In this document: one piece after another, positions 10,440 to 29,899 of the stretch | How positions within the stretch are numbered: position 1 is the stretch's first letter | How the letters are laid out: every line of letters begins with the position of its first letter | Source: Candidatus Zhuqueibacterota bacterium | GTDB taxonomy: Bacteria > Zhuqueibacterota > Zhuqueibacteria > Oceanimicrobiales > Oceanimicrobiaceae | DNA: 34,368 nt | Reading direction: 5' to 3' | NCBI GenBank assembly: GCA_029262035.1 | Contig: JAJDAE010000293.1 | Coordinates: forward strand, 1-34,368 | Program-made: the position numbers and the translations under genes | The notes under the pieces: generated by a model | Databases searched by the model: none | Told to the model about the DNA's origin: nothing | Seen by the model: only the letters and a program-made list of their open reading frames with translations

Positions 10440-13400
10440 TTAATATTCGTTCCAGGGTTTAATTTCCCAATCCTCAATCTTTGAGTTGCAGACTGCGTCG
10501 CAGAAACGCTTGGCAAGTTGAATATTAGTAATAAGCGGAACGCCACAATCAACCGCTCTTCTTCGAACCATATAATCATTTGTCAACTCTTCTTTCTGGT
10601 AATTCTTAGGAATGTTGACAACCAAATCTATTTTCTTTTCAACAAGATAATCCATTATATTTGGTTTTTTATTTTTAAGCGGCCAGTTTAAAACTTCAAT
10701 TTCCAGACCGTATTGTCTCATAAAAGCGGCGGTTCCTTTGGTGGCATAAATGGTTACGCCAATATCTGCCAAGCCTTTGGCGCTTTCTACAAGCTCTGCC
10801 TTACTTTCCAATGGACCGGAAGATAGCAGTATCGATTGAATCGGTACTTTCACACCGACTGAAATAAGCGCTTTTAAAAAAGCTTCCTCAAAAGTACGGC
10901 CAAGACAGCCCACTTCTCCAGTCGAAGCCATTTCTATGCCGAGAATTGGATCCGCACCAGCCAAGCGGGTAAATGAAAACTGGGGCGCTTTTACGCCGAC
11001 ATATTCAAGCTCTAAAAATGATTTTGAATTTACACTTATTGGCTCATCTATAAAAGCTCGTGTTGCAGCTTCAATAAAATTTGTTTTGTAAACTTTTGAC
11101 ACAAACGGGAAACTGCGTGATGCACGTAAGTTACACTCTATTACTTTTACCGAATTATTTTTTGCGATAAATTGAATATTGAAAGGTCCGGTTATTTCAA
11201 GATTTTTAGCAATTTTTTGTGAAGCCAAACGAATTTGGCGCATGGTTTCGATGTAGGTTCTTTGCGGAGGAAGTACCAGCGTTGCATCACCGGAATGTAC
11301 GCCCGCGTTTTCCACATGTTCTGAGATAGCATATAGCACCACTTCACCATCTTTCGCCACGCCGTCAAATTCTATTTCTTTGGCATTCTCTAAAAATTTA
11401 CTAATTACAACCGGATGATCTTTAGAAATATCCGCAGCTTTTTCCAAAAAGAAAGTTAGCTCTTCGTCGTTGGCAGCAACGCCCATGGCGGCTCCGCTTA
11501 AAACATAAGAAGGCCGAACCACAACCGGATAATTGACTTCATGGGCAAATTTCTTTGCCGCATCAATGGAAACCAGTTCTTGCCACTCAGGCTGATCTAT
11601 TCCCATTTTATCGAGCAGGCTGGAAAATTTATGGCGATTTTCTGCGCGGTCAATATTTTCAGGCGACGTTCCCCATATTTTTAATCCGGCATTGCCAAGG
11701 CGCCAGGCGAGATTATTGGGAATCTGGCCGCCCATGGAAATAATTAAACCAAGCGGCTTTTCCATCGCATAAATTTCTAAAATATTTTCAAAACTGAGTT
11801 CGTCAAAATATAGCCGTTCGCATTCATCATAATCCGTGCTCACAGTTTCCGGGTTATAATTGATAAGAATTGTGTTATAACCGAACTTACGCAAAGTCAT
11901 AACCGCATTCACACAGCACCAGTCGAATTCAACTGAACTCCCGATCCGGTAAACTCCTGAACCCAAAACAATTACAGTGTTTTGGGTTCCGAAAGTTACG
12001 TCATTGGCCATGCCGTTATATGTGAGATATAGATAATTCGTTTGCGCCGGGAACTCAGCGGCTAAAGTATCTATTTGTTTCACAACGGGATGAATACCAT
12101 AATTTAATCGCATTTCTCGAACTTCCTGTTCTTCACAACAGAGAATTTTTGAAATTTGTAAATCTGAAAATCCCGCCTGCTTGGAATTGACCAGTATGTT
12201 CTTAGGACAGACTCCATTGGCGTAAGTTGCCAATAATTTTTCTATTTTGACAACCCGCTCAATTTTGTATAAAAACCATTGATCTATTTTTGCCAGGTCG
12301 TAAATTTCATCGGCGGTCATGCCATTTTTAAAAGCTTCAACAACGGCAAAAATTCGTTCATCTGTTGGATTGCCTAACTCTTCCTTAATTTCATCCGGAC
12401 CGTTGAAGTTAAACTGGGAATTGGCAGTTAATCCTTCCGCGCCAATATCCAACATGCGCAATGCTTTTTGTAATGCTTCTTCAAAGGTTCGCCCTATGGC
12501 CATTACTTCACCAACCGACTTCATAGCCGTACCAATTCGGGTAGAGACCTTTTGGAATTTCTTTAAATCCCAGCGCGGAATTTTTACAACAACATAATCC
12601 AGCGCCGGCTCAAAGCAGGCCATTGTAGTTTGAGTAATAGAGTTTTTTATATCAGTTAAACAATACCCAAGTGCAAGCTTGGCACCGACAAAAGCAAGCG
12701 GGTAACCAGTCGCTTTGGAAGCAAGTGCAGAACTTCTGGAAAGCCTTGGGTTCACTTCAATAACGCGGTAATCACCTGTTTCGGGATTCAGAGCATATTG
12801 AATATTACACTCGCCAACAATACCGATATGCCGAACTGTGCGAATAGCAATTTCACGCAATTCATGATATTCCTGATTGTTGAGGGTTTGGCTTGGAGCA
12901 ACGACAATGCTTTCACCGGTATGAATACCAAGTGGATCAAAATTTTCCATATTACAAACGGTAATACAATTATCGAATGCGTCCCGCACGACTTCGTACT
13001 CAACTTCCTTCCAGCCTGAGAGGTATTCTTCGACCAAAATTTGTGTTGTGTGGGTGAAAGCCCTGTCAGACAGTTCCTTCAGTTCTTCATGAGAATAACA
13101 AATCCCGGAACCTAAACCGCCGAGGGCATAAGCAATACGAATCATAACCGGGTAACCGATTTTCTTCGCTTCGGCGAGTGCTTCGTCAACGGAATGAACC
13201 GCCTTGCTAAGTGGAGTTTTGACCTCAATTTCTTTTAGCTTCTCTACAAACCGCCCCCTGTCCTCAGTATCTTTTATTGCATCTATCGGAGTGCCGAGCA
13301 CTTCAATATTATATTTTTTCAAAACACCCTTTTCAGCCAATTCCAGTCCGCAATTTAACGCTGTCTGTCCACCAAAGGCAAGAAAGATACCATCGGGCCT

Positions 13401-13637
13401 TTCCTTGGAAATAATTTTTTCAACAAATTTTGCATTCACAGGTAAAAAATAAACTTTATCCGCGAGATGCTCAGAGGTTTGAATTGTGGCTATATTGGGA
13501 TTTACAAGAACGGTTTCAATGCCTGCACTTTTCAGTGCTTTAATGGCTTGACTGCCAGAGTAATCAAATTCACCGGCCTCACCGATTTTTAATGCTGAGC
13601 TACCAAGAATTATTACCTTTTGGGGAAGTTTCATCAT
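10440..13637 (-). CDS. carB: Carbamoyl-phosphate synthase large subunit
   Basis: Protein of 1065 residues, close to the usual 1060-1080. It makes carbamoyl phosphate from bicarbonate, ammonia (channelled from CarA) and two ATP, for pyrimidine and arginine synthesis. Both ATP-grasp halves are complete: GGLGSGICYS and VIEVNPRLSRSSALASKATG in the first, VVRPSYVLSGAAMGVA and VIECNLRASRSFPFVSK in the second, plus a C-terminal MGS-like allosteric domain (IYATKGTAAFMRQYG). Many stretches (ILGSSALKIGEAGEFDYSGS, NYNPETVSTDYDECERLYFD, SEHVENAGVHSGDATLV) follow the lineage shared by Bacteroidota and eukaryotic CAD rather than the E. coli one. It starts at ATG 13637 (ATGATG), 9 bases after carA, with only a weak ribosome site. 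Confidence 0.97.
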   Translation of the reverse strand: MMKLPQKVIILGSSALKIGEAGEFDYSGSQAIKALKSAGIETVLVNPNIATIQTSEHLADKVYFLPVNAKFVEKIISKERPDGIFLAFGGQTALNCGLELAEKGVLKKYNIEVLGTPIDAIKDTEDRGRFVEKLKEIEVKTPLSKAVHSVDEALAEAKKIGYPVMIRIAYALGGLGSGICYSHEELKELSDRAFTHTTQILVEEYLSGWKEVEYEVVRDAFDNCITVCNMENFDPLGIHTGESIVVAPSQTLNNQEYHELREIAIRTVRHIGIVGECNIQYALNPETGDYRVIEVNPRLSRSSALASKATGYPLAFVGAKLALGYCLTDIKNSITQTTMACFEPALDYVVVKIPRWDLKKFQKVSTRIGTAMKSVGEVMAIGRTFEEALQKALRMLDIGAEGLTANSQFNFNGPDEIKEELGNPTDERIFAVVEAFKNGMTADEIYDLAKIDQWFLYKIERVVKIEKLLATYANGVCPKNILVNSKQAGFSDLQISKILCCEEQEVREMRLNYGIHPVVKQIDTLAAEFPAQTNYLYLTYNGMANDVTFGTQNTVIVLGSGVYRIGSSVEFDWCCVNAVMTLRKFGYNTILINYNPETVSTDYDECERLYFDELSFENILEIYAMEKPLGLIISMGGQIPNNLAWRLGNAGLKIWGTSPENIDRAENRHKFSSLLDKMGIDQPEWQELVSIDAAKKFAHEVNYPVVVRPSYVLSGAAMGVAANDEELTFFLEKAADISKDHPVVISKFLENAKEIEFDGVAKDGEVVLYAISEHVENAGVHSGDATLVLPPQRTYIETMRQIRLASQKIAKNLEITGPFNIQFIAKNNSVKVIECNLRASRSFPFVSKVYKTNFIEAATRAFIDEPISVNSKSFLELEYVGVKAPQFSFTRLAGADPILGIEMASTGEVGCLGRTFEEAFLKALISVGVKVPIQSILLSSGPLESKAELVESAKGLADIGVTIYATKGTAAFMRQYGLEIEVLNWPLKNKKPNIMDYLVEKKIDLVVNIPKNYQKEELTNDYMVRRRAVDCGVPLITNIQLAKRFCDAVCNSKIEDWEIKPWNEY

Positions 13638-13646
13638 AATCTTACT

Positions 13647-14705
13647 TTACAGAAGGTTTATAAATTCATCGAATAAAAAGGCTGTGTCAACCGGACCCGG
13701 AGTAGCCTCAGGGTGAAATTGTACGGACATAAACGGCTTTGAACTATGCCGAATGCCTTCATTCGTTCCGTCATTGGCATTAAAAAACCACGGCTCCCAG
13801 CCATCGGGCAGGCTAGTTTCGTCCACAGCATACCCATGATTTTGCGACGTAATGAAGCAGCGCTTACTACCCACCCGAATACAGGGTTGGTTCTGGCTGC
13901 GATGTCCAAATTTTAGCTTATAGGTATCTGCACCGGCTGCAAGCGCCAGTAATTGATTGCCAAGGCATACTCCAAAGGTCGGGATACCAGCTTCAAGCAA
14001 ACCACGAATTGAATGGACTGTCTCCGCGCACATTTTGGGGTTTCCCGGTCCGTTTGAAATCAGAACCCCATCATAAGTTTCATTCTCAATATCCCAATTC
14101 CAGGGAACAACTTTCACTACTACATTTCTATTTACAAGAGAGCGTATAATATTATATTTGCAGCCGCAATCGAAAACTAATATTTTCTTTTTGCCTTGCC
14201 CAAATTCTTTAGGTGCATCAATTGAGACTTGTGCAACCAGATTATCGATATTAGGATCATGAAATTCCACATCATTATTATCGACAACAATTTTGCCGAG
14301 CACTGAACCATACTCCCGCAATTTTTGCGTAATAAAGCGTGTATCTATGCCTGTGATTGCAGGTATACCGCTGGTTTGAAGCCAATTACTCAAATTAGAG
14401 TAACCTTCTCTGTGGCTGTATTCAACAGAATAATCGGCCACAATAAGGCCTGAAATATGAATTTTTGAAGACTCAAATGCTGAGCTAATCAAATCAGGGA
14501 CATTCGTAAAATCGGGGACCCCGTAATTACCAATCAACGGATAGGTTAAAACCAAAATCTGACCGGCATAAGATGGATCCGTGAAGCACTCAGGATAACC
14601 AACCATACCTGTATTAAAAACGACTTCACCTGCCGCAGCTTTTTCTGCACCAAATGCAGTACCTTCAAATGTTGAACCATCTTGTAATACTAATTTTGCA
14701 TTCAT
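13647..14705 (-). CDS. carA: Carbamoyl-phosphate synthase small (glutamine amidotransferase) subunit
   Basis: Protein of 352 residues. The N-terminal CPSase domain runs from MNAKLVLQDGSTFEGTAFGA through FNTGMVGYPECFTDPSYAGQ. The C-terminal class I glutaminase domain has the nucleophile C247 in FGVCLGNQLLALAAG and the dyad H331/E333 in QFHPEATPGP. It frees ammonia from glutamine and feeds it to CarB. It is the first gene of a carAB operon and starts at ATG 14705. No clear Shine-Dalgarno sequence lies upstream. The upstream spacer shows TATAGT-like -10 sequences but no convincing pairing and no recognisable pyrimidine-responsive leader. Confidence 0.96.
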   Translation of the reverse strand: MNAKLVLQDGSTFEGTAFGAEKAAAGEVVFNTGMVGYPECFTDPSYAGQILVLTYPLIGNYGVPDFTNVPDLISSAFESSKIHISGLIVADYSVEYSHREGYSNLSNWLQTSGIPAITGIDTRFITQKLREYGSVLGKIVVDNNDVEFHDPNIDNLVAQVSIDAPKEFGQGKKKILVFDCGCKYNIIRSLVNRNVVVKVVPWNWDIENETYDGVLISNGPGNPKMCAETVHSIRGLLEAGIPTFGVCLGNQLLALAAGADTYKLKFGHRSQNQPCIRVGSKRCFITSQNHGYAVDETSLPDGWEPWFFNANDGTNEGIRHSSKPFMSVQFHPEATPGPVDTAFLFDEFINLL

Positions 14706-17078: not shown

Positions 17079-18053
17079 TTATTTGCTGAAAGAATGGTTA
17101 GCAGGCTTTACCTTATACTCGTTATAAGAGTAATTGAAAAAACCTAAAATATGTCCAATCTGGAGACTCAAGCGCATTGCCGATTTCACCAAATATTTGC
17201 GCTGTCTAAAGATACTGACTATTGCATGAAGTAAAAAGAAAATTGTACCTGCTGTCGATTTGATTAAGCCCAATACCGCTGAAACTGAATTATCTGTTTT
17301 TCGATTACTCACAATCGTAAAAGTTATACCCGTTCTAAAAGAACGCTTTATCAACCAACGCCAATCAAGCCTCTCCTTTGGAACATATTCGCGTACAATT
17401 GCTTCGTTACACCAAAAAAAATTCGCCTTCTCTTTTTCAATCATTCGGGCAAATAGATCAGAGTCCTCACCGCCAGTCAATCCAAAATCCGGATCAAACT
17501 TATTCTTGAGAAATAATTTTCGTTTTAAAAAAGCATTTCCTGTGCGTGCATCCTGCTCGGGGATTTGTGCACCGGTTAAAAAAGATTTTCGCTTAAAGAA
17601 AAAATCTCGCTCCAACCATGCTGGTGGTTCACTCTCAAAAACTGAATATACCGGACCAAAAAAACCATCTCCATCTAATCTGTTTTTTAGTTCAAGATAA
17701 GAAGCGAGCCATTGCTTATCAGCAACCTCATCATCATCAATAAAAGCAATCCATTCTCCGCAGGATTCTTCCACGAGCATATTTCTGGTCAATGCAATAT
17801 TCTGTTCAGACTGAGTAAAATAGTTAAAATTAGGGAACTGGTGTTTAAACTCTTCAAAAACCGGTTTAGCGCTCTGAGATGAATCATTGTCGACAATGAC
17901 AAATTCCATTTTCAGAAAATCAATGTCTAATAATTCCAAAAAACTTTTTAGCAATCTACGTAAGGATTCCGGTCGACGAAAGGTGGGCACACAAACAGAT
18001 ACTTCCAGCAATTTTGTAGTTTTAATTTTCTTTTTTTCTTGTAATGAAATCAT
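17079..18053 (-). CDS. Glycosyltransferase family 2
   Basis: Protein of 324 residues with a GT-A fold: VSVCVPTFRRPESLRRLLKS (18-37), EFVIVDNDSS (50-59), NIALTRNMLVEESCGEW (85-101), the metal-binding FIDDDE (104-109), and GLTGGEDSDLFARM, the acceptor-side ED motif. A hydrophobic C-terminal stretch (about 250-275) may associate with the membrane. It adds a sugar from an NDP-sugar to the growing repeat unit; donor and linkage cannot be read. The start at ATG 18053 overlaps the end of the deacetylase gene by 32 bases, which suggests translational coupling. It is the last gene of the glycan locus. Its stop is 6 bases from the stop of the convergent beta-helix gene. Confidence 0.9.
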   Translation of the reverse strand: MISLQEKKKIKTTKLLEVSVCVPTFRRPESLRRLLKSFLELLDIDFLKMEFVIVDNDSSQSAKPVFEEFKHQFPNFNYFTQSEQNIALTRNMLVEESCGEWIAFIDDDEVADKQWLASYLELKNRLDGDGFFGPVYSVFESEPPAWLERDFFFKRKSFLTGAQIPEQDARTGNAFLKRKLFLKNKFDPDFGLTGGEDSDLFARMIEKEKANFFWCNEAIVREYVPKERLDWRWLIKRSFRTGITFTIVSNRKTDNSVSAVLGLIKSTAGTIFFLLHAIVSIFRQRKYLVKSAMRLSLQIGHILGFFNYSYNEYKVKPANHSFSK

Positions 18054-18762
18054 ATGCGTCTTTTACATTTAAAATTAAGGCATCGGAAGCCGCTACCCTT
18101 TCTAAAGTATAATTAAAAGAATTGATCGAAATACCCCAATTAGAAGGTTTCACCTGAACATCATGTGTGTAGAAAATCAGCCACCCTTTATCTGCAACGA
18201 CACGTTCAATCCATTTATCTATTTCAATCTTTGAAAATCGATTTTCATATAACGCCACAGAATCTAAAAAGGCGAGATCAATCTCCCCTTTGTTTATAGC
18301 AGGGTGCGTACCTCGCATTGAATCATAAAATTTGCTCAACTTTTTTTTTGATGAAAATGAAAGCTTCCCGAAAGGGTAAGAAAAATGAGGATATTCATCC
18401 TCGGACAGTATTTCCTCTAGAGCATCTTTGTTCTTTTGAACTTCGGACTCTAATTCACTTTCAGCAATTGAATCAACATTTATATGGGAATATGTATGGC
18501 AACCAACATGATGGTTTCTTTCCCGTAAATTTTGGAGTTCATCGCGGGAGATATGAACTCCGCTTGGTCCATTCTTTCCTAATAAGCTTGCTGCAATATA
18601 AAAAGTACCGGTTGCACCAAAGGACTCAAGTAAAGTAGCTCCGTTTCTAAAGGCGGAATCCGGAAAATCATCAAAAGTAAAAGAAACAATAGCATTTTCC
18701 AGATTTAACTTAAACGGTTTACGACAAAAATTACGGACAGACAATCTTGTTAAACGATTCAT
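18022..18762 (-). CDS. Polysaccharide deacetylase (NodB homology, CE4-like)
   Basis: Protein of 246 residues from ATG 18762, 1 base after the FkbH-like stop; a TTG at 18783 also fits but lies inside that gene. NodB motifs are present: SFTFDD (27-32; D31 base and D32 metal ligand), HTYSH (89-93; two metal-binding histidines), YPFG (129-132), and a late YTHDVQ carrying the final histidine. CE4 enzymes remove N- or O-acetyl groups from sugars using Zn2+ or another metal. No signal peptide or membrane segment is visible, so it may act on a nucleotide- or lipid-linked intermediate in the cytoplasm. It is one of two unrelated deacetylase folds in this locus, the other being the PIG-L gene. Confidence 0.9.
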   Translation of the reverse strand: MNRLTRLSVRNFCRKPFKLNLENAIVSFTFDDFPDSAFRNGATLLESFGATGTFYIAASLLGKNGPSGVHISRDELQNLRERNHHVGCHTYSHINVDSIAESELESEVQKNKDALEEILSEDEYPHFSYPFGKLSFSSKKKLSKFYDSMRGTHPAINKGEIDLAFLDSVALYENRFSKIEIDKWIERVVADKGWLIFYTHDVQVKPSNWGISINSFNYTLERVAASDALILNVKDAYDFITRKKEN

Positions 18763-18763
18763 T

Positions 18764-20569
18764 TTATAATCTGAAACCTGCAACTTTCAGTACGCCATCA
18801 TCAGGGACCTCTCGACTAAGGTCATAAGAAAGTTGAAATATTCCATCAACTTCGGATTCAGTAATAAAAGAAAAATCGTCAAAAACTTTACCAGAAGGTG
18901 CATTCCTTTCAGTTTTTCGATAATTTACTCTAAATACTTTTGCCCCATCTTTTTTATATAAATTGAGTAGATATGTAAACAAGGCATGCTCCACCCGTTT
19001 TGCTTGAATACGACAGCTGAACATCAGGTCAATCATTCTTATATCTGATTTTTGAATTACAGAGAATCCAACTGTTCCGTAACTTCCGAACTTATCCGAA
19101 CAATCAAGTACGATACAAATCAATTCGGAATCATTCAGCATTTCCTTCAACCGCTCCTTTGTGTACCGGTTACCCGAAAAATTCATTTGATTGGTACGCT
19201 GAGTAAGCTCATGAATCCGCTCGAGATGATTTTCTGAAAACTCCTTTATTTGAAGTTTAATTGAACAGTTCTTTAAAAAAGAAAAATAATCTCCGGAAAA
19301 ATCACTTTGTATTTCTTCCCGCGTAATTTGATTTTTATAAAATTCTCTACGTTTTGCCGAGTCCGCAGTTTTAGGTAAAATAAACTCAGGATATGATAGT
19401 ATTTCTTGATATTTAATTGCATCAATACACATAACCTCGGGGCAAACTTCAAAAACCTCGGCCCTTTCAAAGGAAGAATCATCAATAAAGGCGACAGTAT
19501 CAATACCTATATTTAAACGTTTTACGATTTTTTTAATAGATTGACTTTTAGGTTCCCATGAAATTTGTGGAAAAAGAAAATAATCATTGAGTTTAAATTT
19601 TTCCAAAACCTCAACTGCTTCCGATGGATTATTTTTACTTGCAATGCTTAATAATATGCCTCGATTATCCAATTCTTCAATTATTGAAAAAACGTTCTCT
19701 TTCAATTTTAGATTTTCAGGGCCATCCTCAACTAAAATACCGTCCCAAAGTGTATTATCCAAATCCCAAACCACTACTTTAATTTTCTTAGGCTTATCTA
19801 CCTTCCCCTCAGCAGAGTGCTTATTGCAAACAAATTCCATCGCACCAAAATACAAAGTGACATTTTCAGTTTGAAGGTTTGGAGTTATATTAATTCCGAA
19901 TGGTTTTGTAGTATCAACTATGTCATGGATTTCGGAAAATGGTATTTGGAACCGCTTAAAGCCTTCGGTCTTAAGGAGTTTCAAATAAGGCATATGAGAT
20001 TTCTCGCCGTTGGGTCGAATTTCAAGAGTTAAATCTACAGAAAAACTATTTGGATTATAAACTTCGAGCATGAAATAATCAGGAGCCTGTTCATCCTGGA
20101 ATTTCGTATTATTCAAAGACCAATTTCTTCTTCGATTTTGGAAAACCCCTGTTACCGAACTACCTGATATTTTCACATTTGCAAACGGTAGAATTTGAAT
20201 TAAGCTGGATACCTGAAAATTCAACTTCTCGATTTTATTAGCTTTTTCAGTACTAAAAAGTCGGACATTACCCGGGCTCCAAAACTTGCCCCATTTCTTA
20301 AAAGTAAATTCGTTAACATAACCATAAAAAGAATTCCTGACCGCATAACGCTTAAGGCCATTCAAAAATCTTTGGCATTTCCCATCAGAACGAGGGCTAT
20401 AGAAATCACAGGTAGAATAACACTGCGGAATTGCGCATTCAGTGCAATGTTCACCCCATTCCAGAACTGAACGATGAGTTATTTGAGATTCATTATTCTG
20501 AAAGAATTCTGCAATATCACGAGCAAGGTTTCCGTTCAGCTGATTATTCTTAACTTCAAATTCGTACAT
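18764..20569 (-). CDS. FkbH-like HAD/GNAT protein with Cys-rich and beta-sandwich N-terminus
   Basis: Protein of 601 residues from ATG 20569, 2 bases after the upstream stop. Residues about 262-420 are a HAD domain: VVWDLDNTLWDG with D269 and D271, SIASKNNPSEAV, and FIDDSSFERAEV. Residues about 420-601 are the GNAT-like half typical of FkbH (RTNQMNFSGNRYTKERL, FGSYGTVGF). FkbH enzymes dephosphorylate 1,3-bisphosphoglycerate and load glyceryl on an acyl carrier protein; relatives occur in polysaccharide loci. The first 260 residues are unlike standard FkbH: five cysteines (C42, C45, C50, C54, C65) in WGEHCTECAIPQCYSTC and DGKCQRF suggest a metal site, and 125-245 look like a carbohydrate-binding-type beta-sandwich. 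No carrier protein gene is in the window. Confidence 0.82.
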   Translation of the reverse strand: MYEFEVKNNQLNGNLARDIAEFFQNNESQITHRSVLEWGEHCTECAIPQCYSTCDFYSPRSDGKCQRFLNGLKRYAVRNSFYGYVNEFTFKKWGKFWSPGNVRLFSTEKANKIEKLNFQVSSLIQILPFANVKISGSSVTGVFQNRRRNWSLNNTKFQDEQAPDYFMLEVYNPNSFSVDLTLEIRPNGEKSHMPYLKLLKTEGFKRFQIPFSEIHDIVDTTKPFGINITPNLQTENVTLYFGAMEFVCNKHSAEGKVDKPKKIKVVVWDLDNTLWDGILVEDGPENLKLKENVFSIIEELDNRGILLSIASKNNPSEAVEVLEKFKLNDYFLFPQISWEPKSQSIKKIVKRLNIGIDTVAFIDDSSFERAEVFEVCPEVMCIDAIKYQEILSYPEFILPKTADSAKRREFYKNQITREEIQSDFSGDYFSFLKNCSIKLQIKEFSENHLERIHELTQRTNQMNFSGNRYTKERLKEMLNDSELICIVLDCSDKFGSYGTVGFSVIQKSDIRMIDLMFSCRIQAKRVEHALFTYLLNLYKKDGAKVFRVNYRKTERNAPSGKVFDDFSFITESEVDGIFQLSYDLSREVPDDGVLKVAGFRL

Positions 20570-20571
20570 TA

Positions 20572-21735
20572 TTATACTGTCAAAAATTTAACGTCTATTT
20601 GAAATTCATCCATCATTTTTTGAATTTCATTTCTGTAAATTGCATTCATGATAAAAATAACGTCAGGCTTAAACTCTCGCAGAAAATCTGGTGAAATAAT
20701 TTTTTGCCCTGTACCTGCCACAAACATTCCCTGCTTGCGAGGATTAATGTCGACAATATATTGGATTTCATCTTTAATCTTGAACGTATTCAAAAAAGTT
20801 ACACCTTTTGAGCCGGCACCCCATAAAACAGCTTTTAAATTATTTTCTTTTATTTCACTAAGCTGCTTTGCAAAACTGTCTTTTTTCTCTGCATATTGCT
20901 TTTGGAAAAGACTAACATAGTTGCTAATATCTTCTGAAATCATCAACTCGGAAGATTGTGAATTATCCGTCAAGCGTGCTTCAATACACAAAAATTGCCC
21001 TGCAAAGGTTTCATATGTATCTAAAACCTCAAAACCGGAACATTTAAAAAGGTTCGTGATGGAAAAAGAGTTGAAATAGGAATAATGTTCATAAATGAGA
21101 TCCCATATCCCCATATCTCGCAAAGTATACAGAACATTTGGAACTTCGAAAAACAACACGGCATCTTTTCGATTTTGCAAAGCTGTTCTGATAGATTGCA
21201 TAAACTGACCTGGTTCAAAAATATGCTCCAGAACATGGCGACAACAGAGCAAATCTGCGCTGTAGTTAGAATATTTCGGAGAGTAGTAGTCTTTGATGAT
21301 TTCTAAATCAGCAGAGATGCTACCATCCTGGCGCTTTTCATCACGAAAACTGGGATCAAATCCAAAGCCTTTGTTGTTGCCAACATCGCAAACCATTTTA
21401 AGAAAATCACCCTGGCCACAGCCAACATCTATCACGCTTTTATTTTGAATATTATACTTCTCAACTATAGTATTGGCTAAACTCGAAGCATAGTCCTGAA
21501 ACTTATTTGAAAAATGTAATGAGTTTTCATATTCCGGGGTATAGTCCAAAAGCTCGGGTTTGAAATCAGAGTTATAAACATGCATGCAATCACCACAGAA
21601 AGCCAATTTAATATCACCTTTCTGTACGGCCAAAGCATAATCTTTTGTTGAGCATAAAATATTACAGAACAACGGCACATCATCCATTTCAAAAAAAACT
21701 GAAGGGCTGTCACTTTCACAAACAGGACATTTCAT
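20572..21735 (-). CDS. Zn-binding/SAM-dependent C-methyltransferase-like protein (paralogue 2)
   Basis: Protein of 387 residues from ATG 21735; a TTG at 21744 is possible but has a poorly spaced ribosome site. The N-terminus has a four-Cys zinc site (C3, C6 in MKCPVCESD; C47, C50 in FCGDC). The class I methyltransferase core has VIDVGCGQGDFLKM and LLCCRHVLEHIFEPGQF. The YEHYSYFNSFSI segment corresponds to the active-site region of TDP-sugar C-methyltransferases. The C-terminal Rossmann-like domain has LWGAGSKGVTFLNTF and YIVDINPRKQGMFVAGTG. This is the TylC3-like three-domain architecture, but the protein is divergent. It is about equally diverged from its upstream neighbour, clearly its paralogue. 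The target could be a deoxysugar or another acyl or keto group. Confidence 0.85.
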   Translation of the reverse strand: MKCPVCESDSPSVFFEMDDVPLFCNILCSTKDYALAVQKGDIKLAFCGDCMHVYNSDFKPELLDYTPEYENSLHFSNKFQDYASSLANTIVEKYNIQNKSVIDVGCGQGDFLKMVCDVGNNKGFGFDPSFRDEKRQDGSISADLEIIKDYYSPKYSNYSADLLCCRHVLEHIFEPGQFMQSIRTALQNRKDAVLFFEVPNVLYTLRDMGIWDLIYEHYSYFNSFSITNLFKCSGFEVLDTYETFAGQFLCIEARLTDNSQSSELMISEDISNYVSLFQKQYAEKKDSFAKQLSEIKENNLKAVLWGAGSKGVTFLNTFKIKDEIQYIVDINPRKQGMFVAGTGQKIISPDFLREFKPDVIFIMNAIYRNEIQKMMDEFQIDVKFLTV

Positions 21736-21757
21736 TTTAACCAATTACTCCATTTTC

Positions 21758-22945
21758 CTAAACAGTAAATAACTCGGGATAAAGATTCATTTTTTCTAAG
21801 TCTGCCTTGATTTCTTCTTTATAAATGGCATTCATAATAATAACCACATCCGGCTCATACTCTTTTAATGCATCCGGTGAAACAATAAGTTGTCCGTTGC
21901 CTGCCATATAGGTCCCCTGCCGGTGCGGATTAATATCAACGACATATTCAATTTGCGTAGTATTCAGCAAAGTTAAAAAAACCACCCCTTTTGAGCCCGA
22001 ACCCCAAATAATTGTTTTTAAGTTCTTTTGTTTGAACTCTTGCAACTTTTCAGTCCAGAATCCACTTTTCTTTTGGAAAGCCTGACTAAAATCTAAAACC
22101 TGATTTTTCAAGATCTCAGTGTCACCAAAACCCTCCTTTTTAACTACGTCATCTTTTACAGGCCTTGCTTCTATCATAAGGTATTGGTCACTATACCCTG
22201 TTTTCAAATCAAGAGCTTCGAAACCTGAATTTTGAAATAGATTCGTTAATGAACTTGGACTAAAGTATGAGCAATGCTCAAAATAGATATCCTCAAATGC
22301 ACAATCTTCAAGTATTCGTGAGACATTGGGGATTTGAAAAAAGACGATACTGTCTAACTCATTTCCAATTGCGCTTCGTACCATTCGCATAAATTCAAGT
22401 GGATTTTGAATATGCTCAAGCGTCATTTTACAACAGTACAAATCAGCTTTATGAGAAGCATACTTTTCTGAATAAAAGTCCTTAATAAACTCTATCCGGG
22501 TGAGCGCCTCGCTTTGCTGGCGGCCCTCAACATAAGCCGGGTCAACTCCAACTCCTGAATTATTGCCAAGCTCACACAACATGATTAAGAAATCACCTTT
22601 GCCGCTGCCAATCTCAACAATCTTTTTGTTTTTGAGATTGTATTTTTCTACGAGTTCAACAGCCATCTGCCGGTTGAATTTATTAAAAGTAGCGGAGTAA
22701 CCTTGTGACTCCTCACACTCGGTGGAATACTCAAGTAATGAGGAATCAAATACTGTGTTATAAATAAATCCGCACCTATTGCAAAACCCAAGGCGAATTT
22801 CTCCCTGTGGATAGTTTAGTGCCCTATCACGGGTTTTCATATTTAAAACGGTATGAACCGGGAAAGATTCAACTTCATAAAATATTTCAACTGAGTTGGA
22901 TTCACAAGCAGGGCATATTGAGTTAACCTGATTATTTTTCATCAT
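21758..22945 (-). CDS. Zn-binding/SAM-dependent C-methyltransferase-like protein (paralogue 1)
   Basis: Protein of 395 residues from ATG 22945 (ATGATG). The zinc site is C11, C14 (ICPACESNS) and C55, C58 (FCNRCGF). The SAM-binding core has IVEIGSGKGDFLIML and LYCCKMTLEHIQNPLEF; IYFEHCSYFSPSSL marks the substrate region. The C-terminal domain has IIWGSGSKGVVFLTLL and YVVDINPHRQGTYMAGNGQL. It shares this architecture and many motifs with the next gene, so the two are a tandem duplication that has diverged. They may act on different positions, work as a heteromer, or methylate two sugars. The product is likely cytoplasmic. It sits 21 bases after the FG-GAP gene stop and 22 bases before its paralogue, so operon membership is likely. 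Confidence 0.85.
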   Translation of the reverse strand: MMKNNQVNSICPACESNSVEIFYEVESFPVHTVLNMKTRDRALNYPQGEIRLGFCNRCGFIYNTVFDSSLLEYSTECEESQGYSATFNKFNRQMAVELVEKYNLKNKKIVEIGSGKGDFLIMLCELGNNSGVGVDPAYVEGRQQSEALTRIEFIKDFYSEKYASHKADLYCCKMTLEHIQNPLEFMRMVRSAIGNELDSIVFFQIPNVSRILEDCAFEDIYFEHCSYFSPSSLTNLFQNSGFEALDLKTGYSDQYLMIEARPVKDDVVKKEGFGDTEILKNQVLDFSQAFQKKSGFWTEKLQEFKQKNLKTIIWGSGSKGVVFLTLLNTTQIEYVVDINPHRQGTYMAGNGQLIVSPDALKEYEPDVVIIMNAIYKEEIKADLEKMNLYPELFTV

Positions 22946-22966: not shown

Positions 22967-25900
22967 CTATTTCAACAATAACATTTTCTTGGTATCCTTA
23001 AAATCTCCGGCATGTAAGAAGTAAAAATAAACGCCTGAAGGCATTTGAATACCTTGGTCACTTTTCCCATTCCATTTTACATTATAAGATCCTGCAGACT
23101 TGCTCTCGTTCAAAATCACTTTTACAACTTGTCCGGTTATATTCACAACAACCAATTTAACCGGCACAGCCCCGTTTACATTCTCCGGAATATCAAATTC
23201 AATTCTTGTTTCAGGATTAAATGGGTTTGGATAATTATGTGAGAGACCAAAAGTTCCGGGTAGCACACTGCCTGGGCTATTTACCGACACATAGACAGGT
23301 AACGCAGGGGGCAGTTGACCATATGTTTCATAAAAATCTTCAAGGTTTTGTTGTCCTGTTATTGTTAACATCGGTGCAGCGCCACCAACAGTCATAATAT
23401 TGGGAACATCAAATATCAAACCCCAGTAGCCTTGTTTTTCATTGACCTCAAAAGGATTTACTGTATAATAATTCTGCTGTGTTTCGTTCCAACCAAAAAC
23501 AGCTAAAATGCTATTAGGTGGCTCAGTAGTAACGGTTTGACTAACACCCCGCACTGAACCAATCATATCCCAGCCTTGTGATGTATAATTGGTCTCGTAT
23601 GAATTCACTACAACGCCACAGACTTCTACCACGGCCTCCGTCTGAAATAGCAGCCAGTAAGCGCGCCTTGGTTCTAAAGTTGTCGCAGTCTCATAAGTTT
23701 GGTTTGCGAAATCCCAGCCAAAAGCGGCAATGGCGCCGGGGAACACAGCACTCAGAGTATTGTCGTCAGGTATTACCGGAAGAGACACAAGATACCAGGC
23801 ACCACCTGTCACATCAAAATTAAAGGTGACACATGACTCCTGGGGAATTAGTGAGGCTAAAGAATCATTTCGCCAAAGGTGAATAAAACCCGGGTCATCC
23901 CATGCGATACTCACAATTTCGAGAACGCCATCATTATTTAAATCGTACAGTTTAGTTCCTAAATGGCTTTCTTTATTTATAGCGATGGTGTGCCCCACAA
24001 AAGAAGTATCGCTATCCCGGTTTTCCCATATACGAACCCGTTCATCCCCACGATGTTCACCAGTTATGATATCCAAATCATTATCATTATCAATATCAGC
24101 AAGCGAGAGAGAATGTGTAGTAGCCTGCGTAGTCAGTAAGTGTCTTGGCCAGCCTATGTTCATAGGGCTTGAAGGTTGTTCCCACCAATACGTTTTAGCA
24201 TCGGCAGGGTCACCATTCTCTTCGGTGACAATCACATCCAGTTTGCCATCGCCGCTCAGATCTCCAATTTCACATCTGTCGGGAAAATTGATTTCAGCAA
24301 CTGTGCCTAACTGAAATGCAGTCCAATCTGCACTGCTATCACCGGGATTTTTGTACCACTCAACAGTTTTGCTACTTCCGGTGGTAGCTGCGATATCAGC
24401 AAAACCATCATTGTCAATATCCCCGATTCCAAACCCTTCATCAGAGGGATTACTACTAACTCTTACTTTCGTCCAGGTTGAAGTATCAGGATTTACCGGT
24501 ATTTCAAAATAATAAATTCCATCGCCGCTGGAAAAAACAATTTCAGGTTTGCCTCCACCAACAAGTTCACCGATTTTATGACCCTGAGAGCCAAGAGAAT
24601 GACTTGCTTCCTGAACCTCTCCAATTTTTAGCTCTGTCCAACTCGCACCACTTGTATCTGTTGCTTCCAGCCAATAAATTGCAATATTCCCCTCATCTTT
24701 CATTGCGAGAATATCAGCTAAACTATCATCATCAACATCAATCATCAAAGCGGCTTCCATTCCCGAAGGAAGAAAGGTTCTAGTCCATCCCGGAATGCTT
24801 AAATCTCCAGGATTCCGATACCAAAATCTCCCTGAAACAATATCTGCATAATCATCACTGTTTACCTTGCCAAATGTTAGCCCAAAAGTTCTTCGGTGGT
24901 TGCTGGTTATTTCAGTATATTGCCATTCATCAATTGGCGACAGAACATTTTCCCACAAATGCAATGGCGGATTACCTGTCCAGTTTGAACCAAAAATATC
25001 AAAATCCCCATCGTTCCCAATATCTGCCACAACAGCATTATGAACACCCGAAGTTCCGATTACTTGTTTTTCCCATAATGTCGCATCCCCGTCAAGGTTT
25101 TTGTAAACCATTATTTCTTTTTCAGGCGAAGTATGCATTTGTGCCAAAACAAGGTCGATGTCTCCGTCTTTATCCATGTCAGCAGCTTGTATCGTATGAC
25201 ATCTGTTCAAATTAGAAACTACAAGGTTAGATGTCCATGAACCAGTCGGGTCTCCAGTTGATGGCGTAAACCATCTTACATCAAATGTGCTTTCAGAACT
25301 TGAGAAGACAATATCCACAATACCATCTTGATTTAAATCAGTAACTAATGCCTTATACTCCGGGTGAATATCACCTATTGTGAACTCGTTCCAGTTTGCT
25401 GTGCGCGAGTCACTACTTCCAGGGTTTTTTAGCCAAACCCCTTGAAAAACCAAATCGGTATGAGTGTCCTGATCTATATCACCAATTGTCATTCCTTCAA
25501 TGCCAAGTTTTCCCACACTTATACCTACTTTCTCCCAGTCAGAAGAATCTCCCTGAAAGAAAATCATTGCCGCATTTCTGTGCCTTGTCGCAACATCTAA
25601 CTTTCCATCGCTATCAAAGTCTGCAATTTGAACATCTTTACCCACACGACCAATCGCCCCAATAGAATCCACAACCCACTCAACCCCATTAAAGGGATTA
25701 CCTGTTGGTAGAGGATTGAAGAATAATTTTAGATTATCCCCGTCCCCGCCATCCGGGACAATGATGTCTAAATCCCCGTCATTATCCATATCTGCTAACG
25801 CGGCATCGGTAGTGAACTCATCGAAAGGCACCGCAATTTCAGTGACTGTCCAATTGGGGTAATGGTACCATTTCAAATTTTCTCCTATGCCACCACCTAT

Positions 25901-26086
25901 AATTAAATCATCAAAACCATCGTTATCAATATCACCCACCAATTTGCAATCCCCAGCCATCTGTGAATCAATGACAACAGTTTTAAAAGGGATTTCTTTT
26001 GAATACAATTCAGACTGGTTGTATAAAATACCATTAATCAGAAAAAGAAATAATAATTGAAATGAAAAATATTGAGGAAATGTCAT
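22967..26086 (-). CDS. Secreted FG-GAP/VCBS repeat protein with C-terminal type A sorting domain
   Basis: Protein of 1039 residues from ATG 26086, with GGAG 5 bases upstream. The frame reaches a TTG at 26119, but the ATG places the signal peptide (PQYFSFQLLFLFLINGIL) at the N-terminus. About 14 calcium-binding repeats of the type D.DNDG..D follow (DIDNDGFDDLIIGG, DMDNDGDLDIIVPD, DFDSDGKLDVATR, DIDNDNDLDIITGEH), which should fold as a beta-propeller. A Trp/Tyr-rich domain follows (GGAWYLVSLP, GYWGLIF). The last 80 or so residues are a FlgD-Ig/sorting domain opening with LSHNYPNPFNPETRIEF and ending in a short basic tail. Type IX cargo of this kind is exported across the outer membrane and often fixed to the surface. 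It probably binds the surface glycan or a ligand; no enzyme motif is seen. Confidence 0.9.
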   Translation of the reverse strand: MTFPQYFSFQLLFLFLINGILYNQSELYSKEIPFKTVVIDSQMAGDCKLVGDIDNDGFDDLIIGGGIGENLKWYHYPNWTVTEIAVPFDEFTTDAALADMDNDGDLDIIVPDGGDGDNLKLFFNPLPTGNPFNGVEWVVDSIGAIGRVGKDVQIADFDSDGKLDVATRHRNAAMIFFQGDSSDWEKVGISVGKLGIEGMTIGDIDQDTHTDLVFQGVWLKNPGSSDSRTANWNEFTIGDIHPEYKALVTDLNQDGIVDIVFSSSESTFDVRWFTPSTGDPTGSWTSNLVVSNLNRCHTIQAADMDKDGDIDLVLAQMHTSPEKEIMVYKNLDGDATLWEKQVIGTSGVHNAVVADIGNDGDFDIFGSNWTGNPPLHLWENVLSPIDEWQYTEITSNHRRTFGLTFGKVNSDDYADIVSGRFWYRNPGDLSIPGWTRTFLPSGMEAALMIDVDDDSLADILAMKDEGNIAIYWLEATDTSGASWTELKIGEVQEASHSLGSQGHKIGELVGGGKPEIVFSSGDGIYYFEIPVNPDTSTWTKVRVSSNPSDEGFGIGDIDNDGFADIAATTGSSKTVEWYKNPGDSSADWTAFQLGTVAEINFPDRCEIGDLSGDGKLDVIVTEENGDPADAKTYWWEQPSSPMNIGWPRHLLTTQATTHSLSLADIDNDNDLDIITGEHRGDERVRIWENRDSDTSFVGHTIAINKESHLGTKLYDLNNDGVLEIVSIAWDDPGFIHLWRNDSLASLIPQESCVTFNFDVTGGAWYLVSLPVIPDDNTLSAVFPGAIAAFGWDFANQTYETATTLEPRRAYWLLFQTEAVVEVCGVVVNSYETNYTSQGWDMIGSVRGVSQTVTTEPPNSILAVFGWNETQQNYYTVNPFEVNEKQGYWGLIFDVPNIMTVGGAAPMLTITGQQNLEDFYETYGQLPPALPVYVSVNSPGSVLPGTFGLSHNYPNPFNPETRIEFDIPENVNGAVPVKLVVVNITGQVVKVILNESKSAGSYNVKWNGKSDQGIQMPSGVYFYFLHAGDFKDTKKMLLLK

Positions 26087-26286
26087 AGTAACTCCAGATT
26101 CTGAATAACTGCTTTCCAATTAACAAATATATGAATTATATTGTTCTTATCTTAAGAGATTTCACCAAAGATATACGAATTTATGCTGCACGGTCTTCAG
26201 ATTTGATGCCAGCCATCCCTCTATCCCACCCAAACGATTTAACTGATTCTCTTATCTTTCTTCGAAACAGTTTATGCGCCTTTATC
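26087..26286 (-). other. Spacer between FkbM gene and FG-GAP gene
   Basis: This is the largest gap inside the glycan locus, 200 bases. It may hold a promoter for the FG-GAP gene and those after it. A sequence CTGGCATCAAATCTGAA (minus strand, about 26212-26196) resembles the -24/-12 promoter of the beta-helix gene, but the -12 GC is GA. No terminator hairpin with a U-tract was found. An open stretch of about 35 codons lacks a usable start. Confidence 0.4.
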
Positions 26287-27038: not shown

Positions 27039-29072
27039 TTAGAGGCTCCTTCCTATAAAATTGCGAAATTCACTACCGGTATCATCGCCAAATTCCCAGT
27101 TAGCAACAATGCCAACACGATTTATTTTCAACCTGCTTGCAGCAGGGTAGATATCCGATAACGCACGATATAACACGGCTTCTCCATTCAGATAAGCCTG
27201 ATAATTCATTCCATCAAATACAACACGCAAGTTATATGGTTTTCCCCAGTAAATTCTTTTGCCAACATTTGTCCATACTGCTTTATAAAGATCTTCACGG
27301 CCATCCAAGTAAAAAAATGATGATATCGAAGCGCCATATCTGTCTTCGAGCCAAGTGTTGATAATGATATAATTATCCTTATCCTGAACAAAGATAAGTC
27401 CTGAGCGCCCTTTATGCCCTTGCCAACGCTCTGAACCAGGCGGTAATATTTCTACCTCCAGGTCAGCCAATTCATTTTCTTTCCACTCGGTTGTATACGC
27501 CGTGCGGCCTGGATTGGGATTTCCCAGATCAGCTTTTACTTTGGCACCGTTCTTTCCGGTTATGTAGAATAAACCATCCCCCACTTCTTTTTGCCAATCT
27601 AAACCGGTATTACTTTTATCTAAATTAGTAAGCTCCCCTGAAAAACTATCCTCAATTAACTTGTTAACTCCCAAAACCTGCCAAGGCTCTTTTATCTTTA
27701 ATTCAGCCGGAATATCAATTTCCTCAGCGTGCATTTCCATTCTTTGAATTGCAAATACTTTGGACGGCTCCTCCGCGTAGAAGCCAACTTTCTTCAAATT
27801 GTCATTAGGACCTAATGTACAAAAACCTTCAATGAAGTTTTGGTCAATAACCAGAGATATCTTCCCGGCGTAATCAGACAACTGGATTGAATTAACACCT
27901 TTCTCAAAGCAGATGTTTTTAGTGGAATACAAGATGCTTTTAGAACCTTGTTTCACCTGAATTAAGTGCGCTTCAGTTTTTTCGAATTGAAGCTGATAAT
28001 AGTTTTTTTCGTCCTCATAGCGCCAAATAATGCCGAAAAATTTCACTGCATTTATATTGGAAACCAACACATGAATTAAACAAGGTTTATGAATTCCTTC
28101 CACGATGGTGGTATTACTTTGAGCAGTTGCCCTCAGCCCTAAATGAGATCTGTGAAAATCTCCCGCAATTACCCGCCAGTTATTTTTTTGAGTAGTGAGT
28201 TTACTATCCTGCTTTGATTCAAACTTATCGTGAAAATATGCTGAGCTATACCAGGTTTTCCAATCGGTTATTTTATTTGCACGAACTCCATAAACGCGCG
28301 TGGCTGCTTTAAAACCAACCTCCCCAATTACGCTTTGATATATACCAAGAAAAATGGATTTCTTCTTAACCTTTGGCATAACATATAGAGGCCTCATTTT
28401 TGAATAAGCAGGGATGCCTTCAACGGACTCTAACGAAGAAATATAATACAAAATATCGTTCTCACGAATAACGCCAATATAATAATAAGGGATATTTTGT
28501 AGTCCGGATAAAGCCGCCATTTTCACTCGACCACCTTGAAGCAAAAGTTGACCATTCTCTACCCCTGTGGCTCGCATTATGAATGAGTTTCCGTTTTTTG
28601 TGGGGTTTGGAGGGTTCTTTGATTCGCACCAACCGACAACTAAGTTTTCACTGTAAGCCGGCCAGTTAATATAGTGTGAAATTTCAGGAACTTTCTTTTT
28701 TTTCAAAAAAACCGGCAAAGTATTATCCGGGATTTTTATTAACATTTGCCGAAAAATTCCTTTTAACAGATATTTGACGTAACTCTCGTCAGCATGTTTG
28801 GTCTGGGAGTTATTATGTCCGTTTATAAGGAACACAGAAAAGGCAAGTCCACTTTCAGATTTAAAAGGCCCGTAAGTTACACCGTGGCGATTCCATCCCG
28901 GAAACGTTGGAAAGTCAATTCGAAGAGTATTTTGCTCAACCGACAAAACACCTTCTTCATCCCTGCCATATCTGGTTATTTCAGAGGAAGCTTTTGAATT
29001 AATAACTGAACCCCGCTGAATATTCTCAGCAAAATCATCTTTTAAGCGGGCTACTGTTCCATTTTCACTCAA
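27039..29072 (-). CDS. Unrecognised 677-residue protein with repeated concanavalin-like beta-sandwich segments
   Basis: I do not recognise this as a named family. It starts at a TTG (29072) that overlaps the PIG-L stop as TTGA; the next in-frame ATG is over 100 codons in. No signal peptide or membrane segment is visible. Three regions look like laminin-G or DUF1080-type beta-sandwiches: about 155-275 (GNSFIMRATGVENGQLLLQG, IPYYYIGVIRENDILYYISS), about 290-455 (FFGIIWRYEDEKNYYQLQFE) and about 480-677 (SGLIFVQDKDNYIIINTWLE, YNLRVVFDGMNYQAYLNGEA). The repeated D-x-NYY/NYI element is shared with the C-terminal part of the beta-helix protein. Such folds bind or cleave glycans. Its place among cytoplasmic glycan enzymes suggests it acts on lipid-linked or nascent polymer, but this is inference. 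Confidence 0.7.
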   Translation of the reverse strand: MSENGTVARLKDDFAENIQRGSVINSKASSEITRYGRDEEGVLSVEQNTLRIDFPTFPGWNRHGVTYGPFKSESGLAFSVFLINGHNNSQTKHADESYVKYLLKGIFRQMLIKIPDNTLPVFLKKKKVPEISHYINWPAYSENLVVGWCESKNPPNPTKNGNSFIMRATGVENGQLLLQGGRVKMAALSGLQNIPYYYIGVIRENDILYYISSLESVEGIPAYSKMRPLYVMPKVKKKSIFLGIYQSVIGEVGFKAATRVYGVRANKITDWKTWYSSAYFHDKFESKQDSKLTTQKNNWRVIAGDFHRSHLGLRATAQSNTTIVEGIHKPCLIHVLVSNINAVKFFGIIWRYEDEKNYYQLQFEKTEAHLIQVKQGSKSILYSTKNICFEKGVNSIQLSDYAGKISLVIDQNFIEGFCTLGPNDNLKKVGFYAEEPSKVFAIQRMEMHAEEIDIPAELKIKEPWQVLGVNKLIEDSFSGELTNLDKSNTGLDWQKEVGDGLFYITGKNGAKVKADLGNPNPGRTAYTTEWKENELADLEVEILPPGSERWQGHKGRSGLIFVQDKDNYIIINTWLEDRYGASISSFFYLDGREDLYKAVWTNVGKRIYWGKPYNLRVVFDGMNYQAYLNGEAVLYRALSDIYPAASRLKINRVGIVANWEFGDDTGSEFRNFIGRSL

Positions 29073-29899
29073 ACTGAAAATCCATATTGGTAAAAAACCT
29101 CATGTTCATAAAAAAAACAATCTAAAAAATCACCGCAGGCCACTTCGCCCAAAGTCGGCCAATCTTTTTTTGAATTCATTTTGGTCATTTGCGATTTATA
29201 TGCATTTAGAGCTTCGCGTTTTTTTTGCAAAGCATCTGCAACGTACACACTAGTTTTAAAGCAATTAAATGCTGAAAGACCAAAACCAAAGGATGCAGCC
29301 TTACGAAACTCTGTTAAAAAAACTCGACTCACCTTTATATCAATGCCAATCCATGGCCAGTGGCTCCAAAACCATATAGGAAACTCAAAAACACTAACGG
29401 CCTTGCCTAAACTTTTCAAAGCCTCTTTTACAATTCTGTTGGTTTCGATGTGATCCGGATGGACATCTTGAAAAAAGGGCATGTATATTTGTTCAGGACT
29501 TATCTCATCAATAATTCTTTTTACGTTATCAACAGCATCATCATGAAATGTAATGAACTTACTTTGATGGTAATCTAAGAAAATTATCTTGTTTTCACTC
29601 AGGCCTAAAATTTTAGTCGCAGCTAAAGCCTCTTCATGACGCAATGCCTTGACGTCAGCTTCATCTAAAAACTTTGAGTGTGACCGACTACCGTCAGTCA
29701 GAAATACAATAAATAAATCGGCTCCCGCTTTAATTTTTTTATAGATAGTGGCGCCGCACCCTAAAGTTTCATCGTCTTGGTGCGGAATAAAAACAATAGC
29801 ACGCTTCTTTAACTCAGTCTCGTTTACGGTCTTACATCTTTGGTTTAAAAAATTTCTTACAGAAGAAGAACGATTAACTCTTATAGACGTTTCTACCAT
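29069..29899 (-). CDS. PIG-L/LmbE-family deacetylase
   Basis: Protein of 276 residues from ATG 29899, which directly follows the GT4 stop with no spacer. The zinc site is HQDDE (40-44; the usual form is HPDDE) in IVFIPHQDDETLGCGA, and HPDH (147-150) supplies the third ligand. The family removes N-acetyl groups from GlcNAc in nucleotide-, lipid- or thiol-linked sugars (GlcNAc-PI, bacillithiol, mycothiol). Here it most likely deacetylates a glycan intermediate in the cytoplasm. The Pro-to-Gln change lies beside the ligands and should not remove activity. A segment WFWSHWPWIGIDIKVSR near 180-195 is Trp-rich and may contact lipid or sugar. The stop overlaps the next gene's TTG start. Confidence 0.9.
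   Translation of the reverse strand: MVETSIRVNRSSSVRNFLNQRCKTVNETELKKRAIVFIPHQDDETLGCGATIYKKIKAGADLFIVFLTDGSRSHSKFLDEADVKALRHEEALAATKILGLSENKIIFLDYHQSKFITFHDDAVDNVKRIIDEISPEQIYMPFFQDVHPDHIETNRIVKEALKSLGKAVSVFEFPIWFWSHWPWIGIDIKVSRVFLTEFRKAASFGFGLSAFNCFKTSVYVADALQKKREALNAYKSQMTKMNSKKDWPTLGEVACGDFLDCFFYEHEVFYQYGFSV

Follow-up and report, generated by a model that had tools for sequence, protein, structure and literature searches.

To our knowledge, the FkbH enzymes characterised so far all load a carrier protein. FkbH enzymes are described as taking the glyceryl that they load from 1,3-bisphosphoglycerate (PMC7489565). Two kinds of FkbH protein serve here as terms of comparison: the FkbH/OzmB-type glyceryl-ACP synthases of methoxymalonyl-ACP operons, which consist of a HAD and a GNAT half (about 350 aa) and are encoded beside acyl carrier protein (ACP) and dehydrogenase genes, and the SGNH-like/FkbH fusions (BF1531, PDB 3slr type), in which an N-terminal half is joined to the FkbH half. 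Outside the FkbH enzymes, two glycan-modifying systems can be set beside the locus described here, namely the HfsH/HfsK proteins of Caulobacter and PglB2 of Neisseria. HfsK is a FemAB/GNAT-type protein, encoded outside the holdfast locus, and is not known to be an FkbH fusion; PglB2, as far as we know, has no FkbH domain either. In the Caulobacter holdfast, the deacetylase HfsH acts on the polysaccharide and HfsK, a putative acetyltransferase, modifies the same polymer (PMC8449245), while PglB2 has an enzyme domain proposed to furnish an amino sugar with a glyceryl-derived group where acetyl would otherwise be (PMC6959607). For the N-glyceroyl group on the pseudaminic acid of Tannerella, the authors could name no gene (‘remains elusive’, PMC6120980).

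The DNA analysed here (the window) is a stretch of 34,368 nucleotides from a Candidatus Zhuqueibacterota bacterium (GCA_029262035.1, contig JAJDAE010000293.1). Its FkbH-type protein and the relatives of that protein share with the FkbH/OzmB type the HAD and GNAT halves and the universal residues, including C519, and form its sister clade. They differ from it in having a cysteine motif, a predicted beta-sandwich, two further cysteines (C435 and C490) and a deacetylase partner, and in having no ACP encoded locally. The features concerned are as follows:

18764..20569, minus strand: FkbH-type fusion protein, 601 aa (open reading frame; TIGR01686, E=7.6e-77)
20357..20458, minus strand: five-cysteine motif, residues 38-71 (W38, E40, H41, C42, C45, P48, C50, C54, R60, D62, C65, G71), from conservation and from sub-threshold Fer4_11/Fer4_20 matches in some relatives
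19823..20353, minus strand: predicted beta-sandwich, residues 73-249, with a helical insertion at 107-153 (AlphaFold2 model; best Foldseek match CBM11, 6r3m)
19370..19783, minus strand: HAD-IIIC phosphatase-like half, residues 263-400, with D269/D271, K341 and D363/D364 (TIGR01686; Foldseek, 3slr and MDP-1; residue conservation)
18818..19369, minus strand: GNAT-like half, residues 401-584 (Foldseek matches to SpeG-type N-acetyltransferases)
19265..19267, minus strand: C435, family-specific cysteine (alignment)
19100..19102, minus strand: C490, family-specific cysteine (alignment)
19013..19015, minus strand: C519, cysteine of all FkbH domains aligned (alignment)
18022..18783, minus strand: HfsH-like CE4 polysaccharide deacetylase, conserved partner (PF01522, E=6.2e-19; DD and HxxxH motifs intact)
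17079..18053, minus strand: family 2 glycosyltransferase, overlapping the deacetylase gene (PF00535, E=1.2e-20)

Architecture of the fusion protein

The FkbH reading frame starts with ATG and is uninterrupted only on the minus strand. The TIGR01686 domain covers residues 263-568 of the product (258.6 bits, cut-off 146.65), and DLDNTLW begins at residue 269, exactly where an earlier note on this DNA had placed it. In the full-length model (pLDDT 79.5, pTM 0.45), Foldseek relates the HAD half to 3slr and MDP-1, and the GNAT half to amine N-acetyltransferases of the SpeG type.

The cysteines of the N-terminal half were also correctly reported, the translated frame having them at 42, 45, 50, 54 and 65; the ‘18-residue core’ attributed to them was an error, as C42 to C65 spans 24 residues. 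Across the family the motif reads W-x-[ED]-H-C-x-E-C-x2-P-x-C-x3-C...C, and all five cysteines are kept in 16/16 members. Alignment A4 (15 rows) has W38, H41, C42, E44, C45, P48, C50, C54, Y57, R60, D62, C65 and G71 invariant, and the sixteenth row (L002) keeps them likewise. The N-termini in this alignment are 17-39% identical to that of the window protein, with the five cysteines invariant even at 17%.

Residues 1-261 gave no Pfam match at all up to a permissive E<=10, and profile searches of the N-terminus against NCBIfam, PHROGs and PDB sequences gave no meaningful match, in agreement with the earlier view that this N-terminus is unlike the usual SGNH type. Since it matches no described family in these libraries and the cysteines, whose conservation in homologues had been set beforehand as a refuting check, are kept in all of them, the novelty claimed for this region stands. 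The C-x2-C-x4-C-x3-C spacing is like that seen in certain 4Fe-4S proteins, among them the DmsB and GltD/DPYD types. The window protein itself matched none of the Pfam 4Fe-4S families, and some relatives match Fer4_11 and Fer4_20 below threshold (best Fer4_11 15.0 bits, gathering cut-off 26.2). This ferredoxin-like spacing is a lead, and only a lead, to an iron–sulfur site as candidate. The cysteine loop is poorly modelled, residues 46-53 and 60-66 lying at pLDDT <50.

By contrast with that loop, the beta-sandwich strands (73-100 and 165-249) are mostly confident in the AlphaFold2 model of the N-terminal half (15 sequences, mean pLDDT 74), with blocks of pLDDT about 80-95. Against the PDB, Foldseek ranked the CBM11 structure 6r3m first (E=2.2e-4, prob 1.00, TMq 0.36), and CBM30 and CBM28 appear lower in the ranking. 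CBM11 and CBM30 may have the jelly-roll fold in common with the predicted sandwich (Foldseek prob 0.99-1.00), whereas identity is about 9% and TMq 0.36-0.39, and the window protein, unlike them, is without an evident signal peptide. A CBM11-like jelly-roll fold class is plausible for the modelled domain, the TM-score being low on the query. For the carbohydrate-binding-type domain proposed in the earlier note, the fold search gives some support, CBM11 and CBM30 being the best matches with modest TM-scores.

Ancestry and distribution of the family

A maximum-likelihood tree was built from 55 FkbH domains (16 family members, 4 of the methoxymalonyl-ACP type and 35 ordinary ones). All 16 members form one clade (96/88), sister to the four methoxymalonyl-ACP-type proteins, of which three come from annotated plasmid operons (Streptomyces, Chroococcidiopsis and Alkalihalophilus) and one from the window's phylum. 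The 35 ordinary FkbH proteins split off from these two groups by a 100/100 branch. The likeness of the SGNH-like/FkbH fusions to the window protein thus ends at the fusion itself: they lie across this 100/100 branch, their N-terminus is unrelated, and the C-x2-C-x4-C-x3-C pattern is present in 0/39 of the other FkbH proteins, taken as controls. The tree indicates that the FkbH half is of polyketide-type ancestry, and not of the SGNH type of polysaccharide loci.

The alignment separates general from family-specific residues. D269, D271, D363, D364 and C519 are common to all FkbH types aligned, C519 being a cysteine in all 55 domains. C435 is found in 16/16 members, with leucine in 39/39 others; C490 is found in 15/16 (valine in the remaining one) and in 0/39 others.

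The window genome holds one copy of the gene, and a search for the N-terminal half found it in none of the 81 further genomes of the phylum that were searched. A scan of a genome collection, with one sequence rather than an alignment as query and hence of little sensitivity for phyla other than the window's and Acidobacteriota, retrieved one Acidobacteriaceae MAG, whose protein aligns along almost its entire length at 45% identity. Among Acidobacteriota sampled at phylum level, 3/396 genomes were positive (again 3/396 with a better profile), and within one order of that phylum 17/397. After removal of two fragments at contig ends (L028 and L029, left out of all counts) and one chance match, the family comprises the window protein and 15 Acidobacteriota relatives, the first MAG included. 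This chance match, the borderline candidate G653/L043 (E=6e-4), was rejected as an accidental frame beside unrelated genes. A plasmid collection searched with the N-termini of two members gave no match, and two scans of viral contigs found no member.

The family is therefore uncommon among the genomes searched in the two phyla. The nesting of the window protein among Acidobacteriota members in the tree suggests horizontal transfer of the window gene, phyla outside these two having been sampled very sparsely. No description of an FkbH family with a cysteine motif and beta-sandwich was found in the open-licence literature; the 16 proteins constitute a small family, so far undescribed, which extends the known kind of FkbH enzyme.

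The deacetylase partner and its surroundings

The product of the gene next to the window FkbH gene scores 68.6 bits against PF01522 (cut-off 23.1) and 176 bits against the HfsH model NF050820, under the equivalog cut-off of 400; on these scores it is classed as HfsH-like, and not as HfsH. A deacetylase directly adjoins the FkbH gene on the same strand in 14/16 members:

— Eleven members, the window among them, have an HfsH-like CE4 gene directly downstream on the same strand, with reading frames that mostly overlap or touch.

— In two members (L010 and L040) this downstream place is taken by a YdjC/ChbG-type protein (PF04794), and in one (L042) another kind of CE4 lies directly upstream.

Of the remaining two, L039 has its HfsH-like CE4 one gene away (about 1.1 kb), and the 11-kb contig of L041 encodes no deacetylase. 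All 13 CE4 copies retain intact DD and HxxxH motifs. In the control loci of other FkbH genes, for which the flank was 1.5 kb around the FkbH domain and only deacetylases similar to the queries were detectable, a same-strand deacetylase was found in 0/36, with one on the opposite strand (L046). Counting downstream same-strand deacetylases (L039 in, L042 out), the contrast is 14/16 versus 0/36 (Fisher p=7e-11, optimistic given the relatedness of the members); indeed, the members are few and come from two phyla, so that these counts are not independent of descent. As YdjC or another CE4 replaces the HfsH-like CE4 with adjacency kept, deacetylase function seems to have been retained while the gene was swapped.

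Other genes of the window locus, all on the minus strand, include, immediately upstream of the FkbH gene, two tandem C-methyltransferase-like genes (20572-22945; Methyltransf_23 and Methyltransf_14; products of about 390 aa each), then within the glycan locus a 1050-aa protein (22967-26119) that has FG-GAP repeats and ends in a type IX secretion sorting tail, a 677-aa protein without Pfam or NCBIfam match (27039-29072) and a further deacetylase, a PIG-L-type de-N-acetylase (29069-29899; PF02585). Among the relatives, similar ORFs for proteins of about 600-700 aa recur at a distance of a few genes from the family gene in L009 (5626-7725), L010, L035, L036 and L038; the L009 protein has no Pfam match. 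GNAT/FemAB-like acyltransferases (Acetyltransf_6) are encoded at L002:7835-8941, L041:5910-6860 and L042:12729-13943.

Proposed function and alternatives

We propose, with about an even chance of being right, that the FkbH enzyme and the deacetylase together exchange acetyl for glyceryl on an amino sugar, the glyceryl being transferred directly without an ACP. The proposal is founded on the deacetylase partner, the likeness of the GNAT half to amine acetyltransferases, the CBM-like domain, the lack of a local ACP and the FkbH chemistry of PMC8949500, from which its mechanistic basis is also drawn. The window protein would be a three-part enzyme, probably cytoplasmic, paired with the adjacent deacetylase in an exopolysaccharide locus. 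In a growing oligosaccharide, probably a lipid-linked one, the deacetylase would strip an amino sugar of its N-acetyl group; the HAD half would take a glyceryl-type group from 1,3-bisphosphoglycerate and hold it as a thioester, probably on C519, during phosphate removal; and the GNAT half would hand it to the freed amine, not to an ACP. The beta-sandwich would position the glycan, and the cysteine motif, perhaps with C435 and C490 of the GNAT half, would be a metal or iron–sulfur site shaping the acceptor side. The pair would thus resemble the Caulobacter system in having an HfsH-type deacetylase at work in a polysaccharide locus, and would match what is proposed for PglB2, a different protein, in putting a glyceryl-derived group on an amino sugar.

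The main alternative is a conventional FkbH reaction, in which glyceryl is loaded onto a housekeeping ACP and passed to the glycan by a separate transferase, the N-terminus only docking to a partner or to the glycan machinery. The FkbH half has its nearest kin among carrier-loading polyketide enzymes, and the GNAT/FemAB-like acyltransferases in several relatives' loci could perform the transfer. Across the window genome (about 96% complete), PF00550 has one match, on contig C326, the window contig being C216; the earlier statement that no carrier protein is encoded nearby was thus correct, and a housekeeping ACP could still act as carrier. In the other 15 genomes, PF00550 has no match closer than about 20 kb to the family gene, whereas ordinary FkbH genes in G427, G452 and G558 have one beside them. 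L037 has a weak ACP-like match (E=0.02; ORF 14425-14688) beside a second FkbH-like ORF (12549-14450), both a few genes from the family member. The lack of an ACP near the family gene in all 16 genomes tells against the conventional reaction, as does the absence of a visible FemAB-like gene in the window; moreover, loading of a housekeeping ACP would by itself leave the deacetylase pairing unexplained. We regard this alternative as possible, if rather doubtful.

An O-acylation of a glycan hydroxyl, with the deacetylase acting on a different sugar within the repeat unit, has a distinctly poorer chance. The two proteins would then share a pathway and not a reaction; both genes do lie in exopolysaccharide loci, and gene pairing alone does not imply a common substrate atom. 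However, the deacetylase has been replaced by non-orthologous proteins (YdjC, other CE4) that still adjoin the FkbH gene, which argues for a closer coupling, and GNAT enzymes are usually amine acylators. That the FkbH half no longer transfers acyl groups and is now a phosphatase or regulator, with the N-terminal cysteines as a structural zinc site, is very improbable: the sub-threshold level of the Pfam iron–sulfur matches leaves zinc possible, but the whole family has kept C519 and the HAD and GNAT residues common to all FkbH types.

A stronger form of the exchange proposal would have the carrier-independent transfer to the deacetylase-exposed amine accompanied by a metal site, iron–sulfur or other, that links the N-terminal cysteines with C435/C490 and puts acylation under redox or metal control; we consider this form unlikely. 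Overall, the earlier interpretation is partly supported, and three findings go beyond it: the conserved deacetylase partner, the descent of the FkbH half from the polyketide type, and the additional family-specific C435 and C490 in the GNAT half.

If the exchange proposal is true, it would define an acetyl-for-glyceryl exchange module for bacterial glycans, with FkbH chemistry freed from the carrier protein. It would also provide a candidate enzyme for a glycan step in which N-glyceroyl sugars are known and the enzyme has been hard to name, in the form of a two-gene module that is small and recognisable by its W-x-E-H-C-x-E-C motif.
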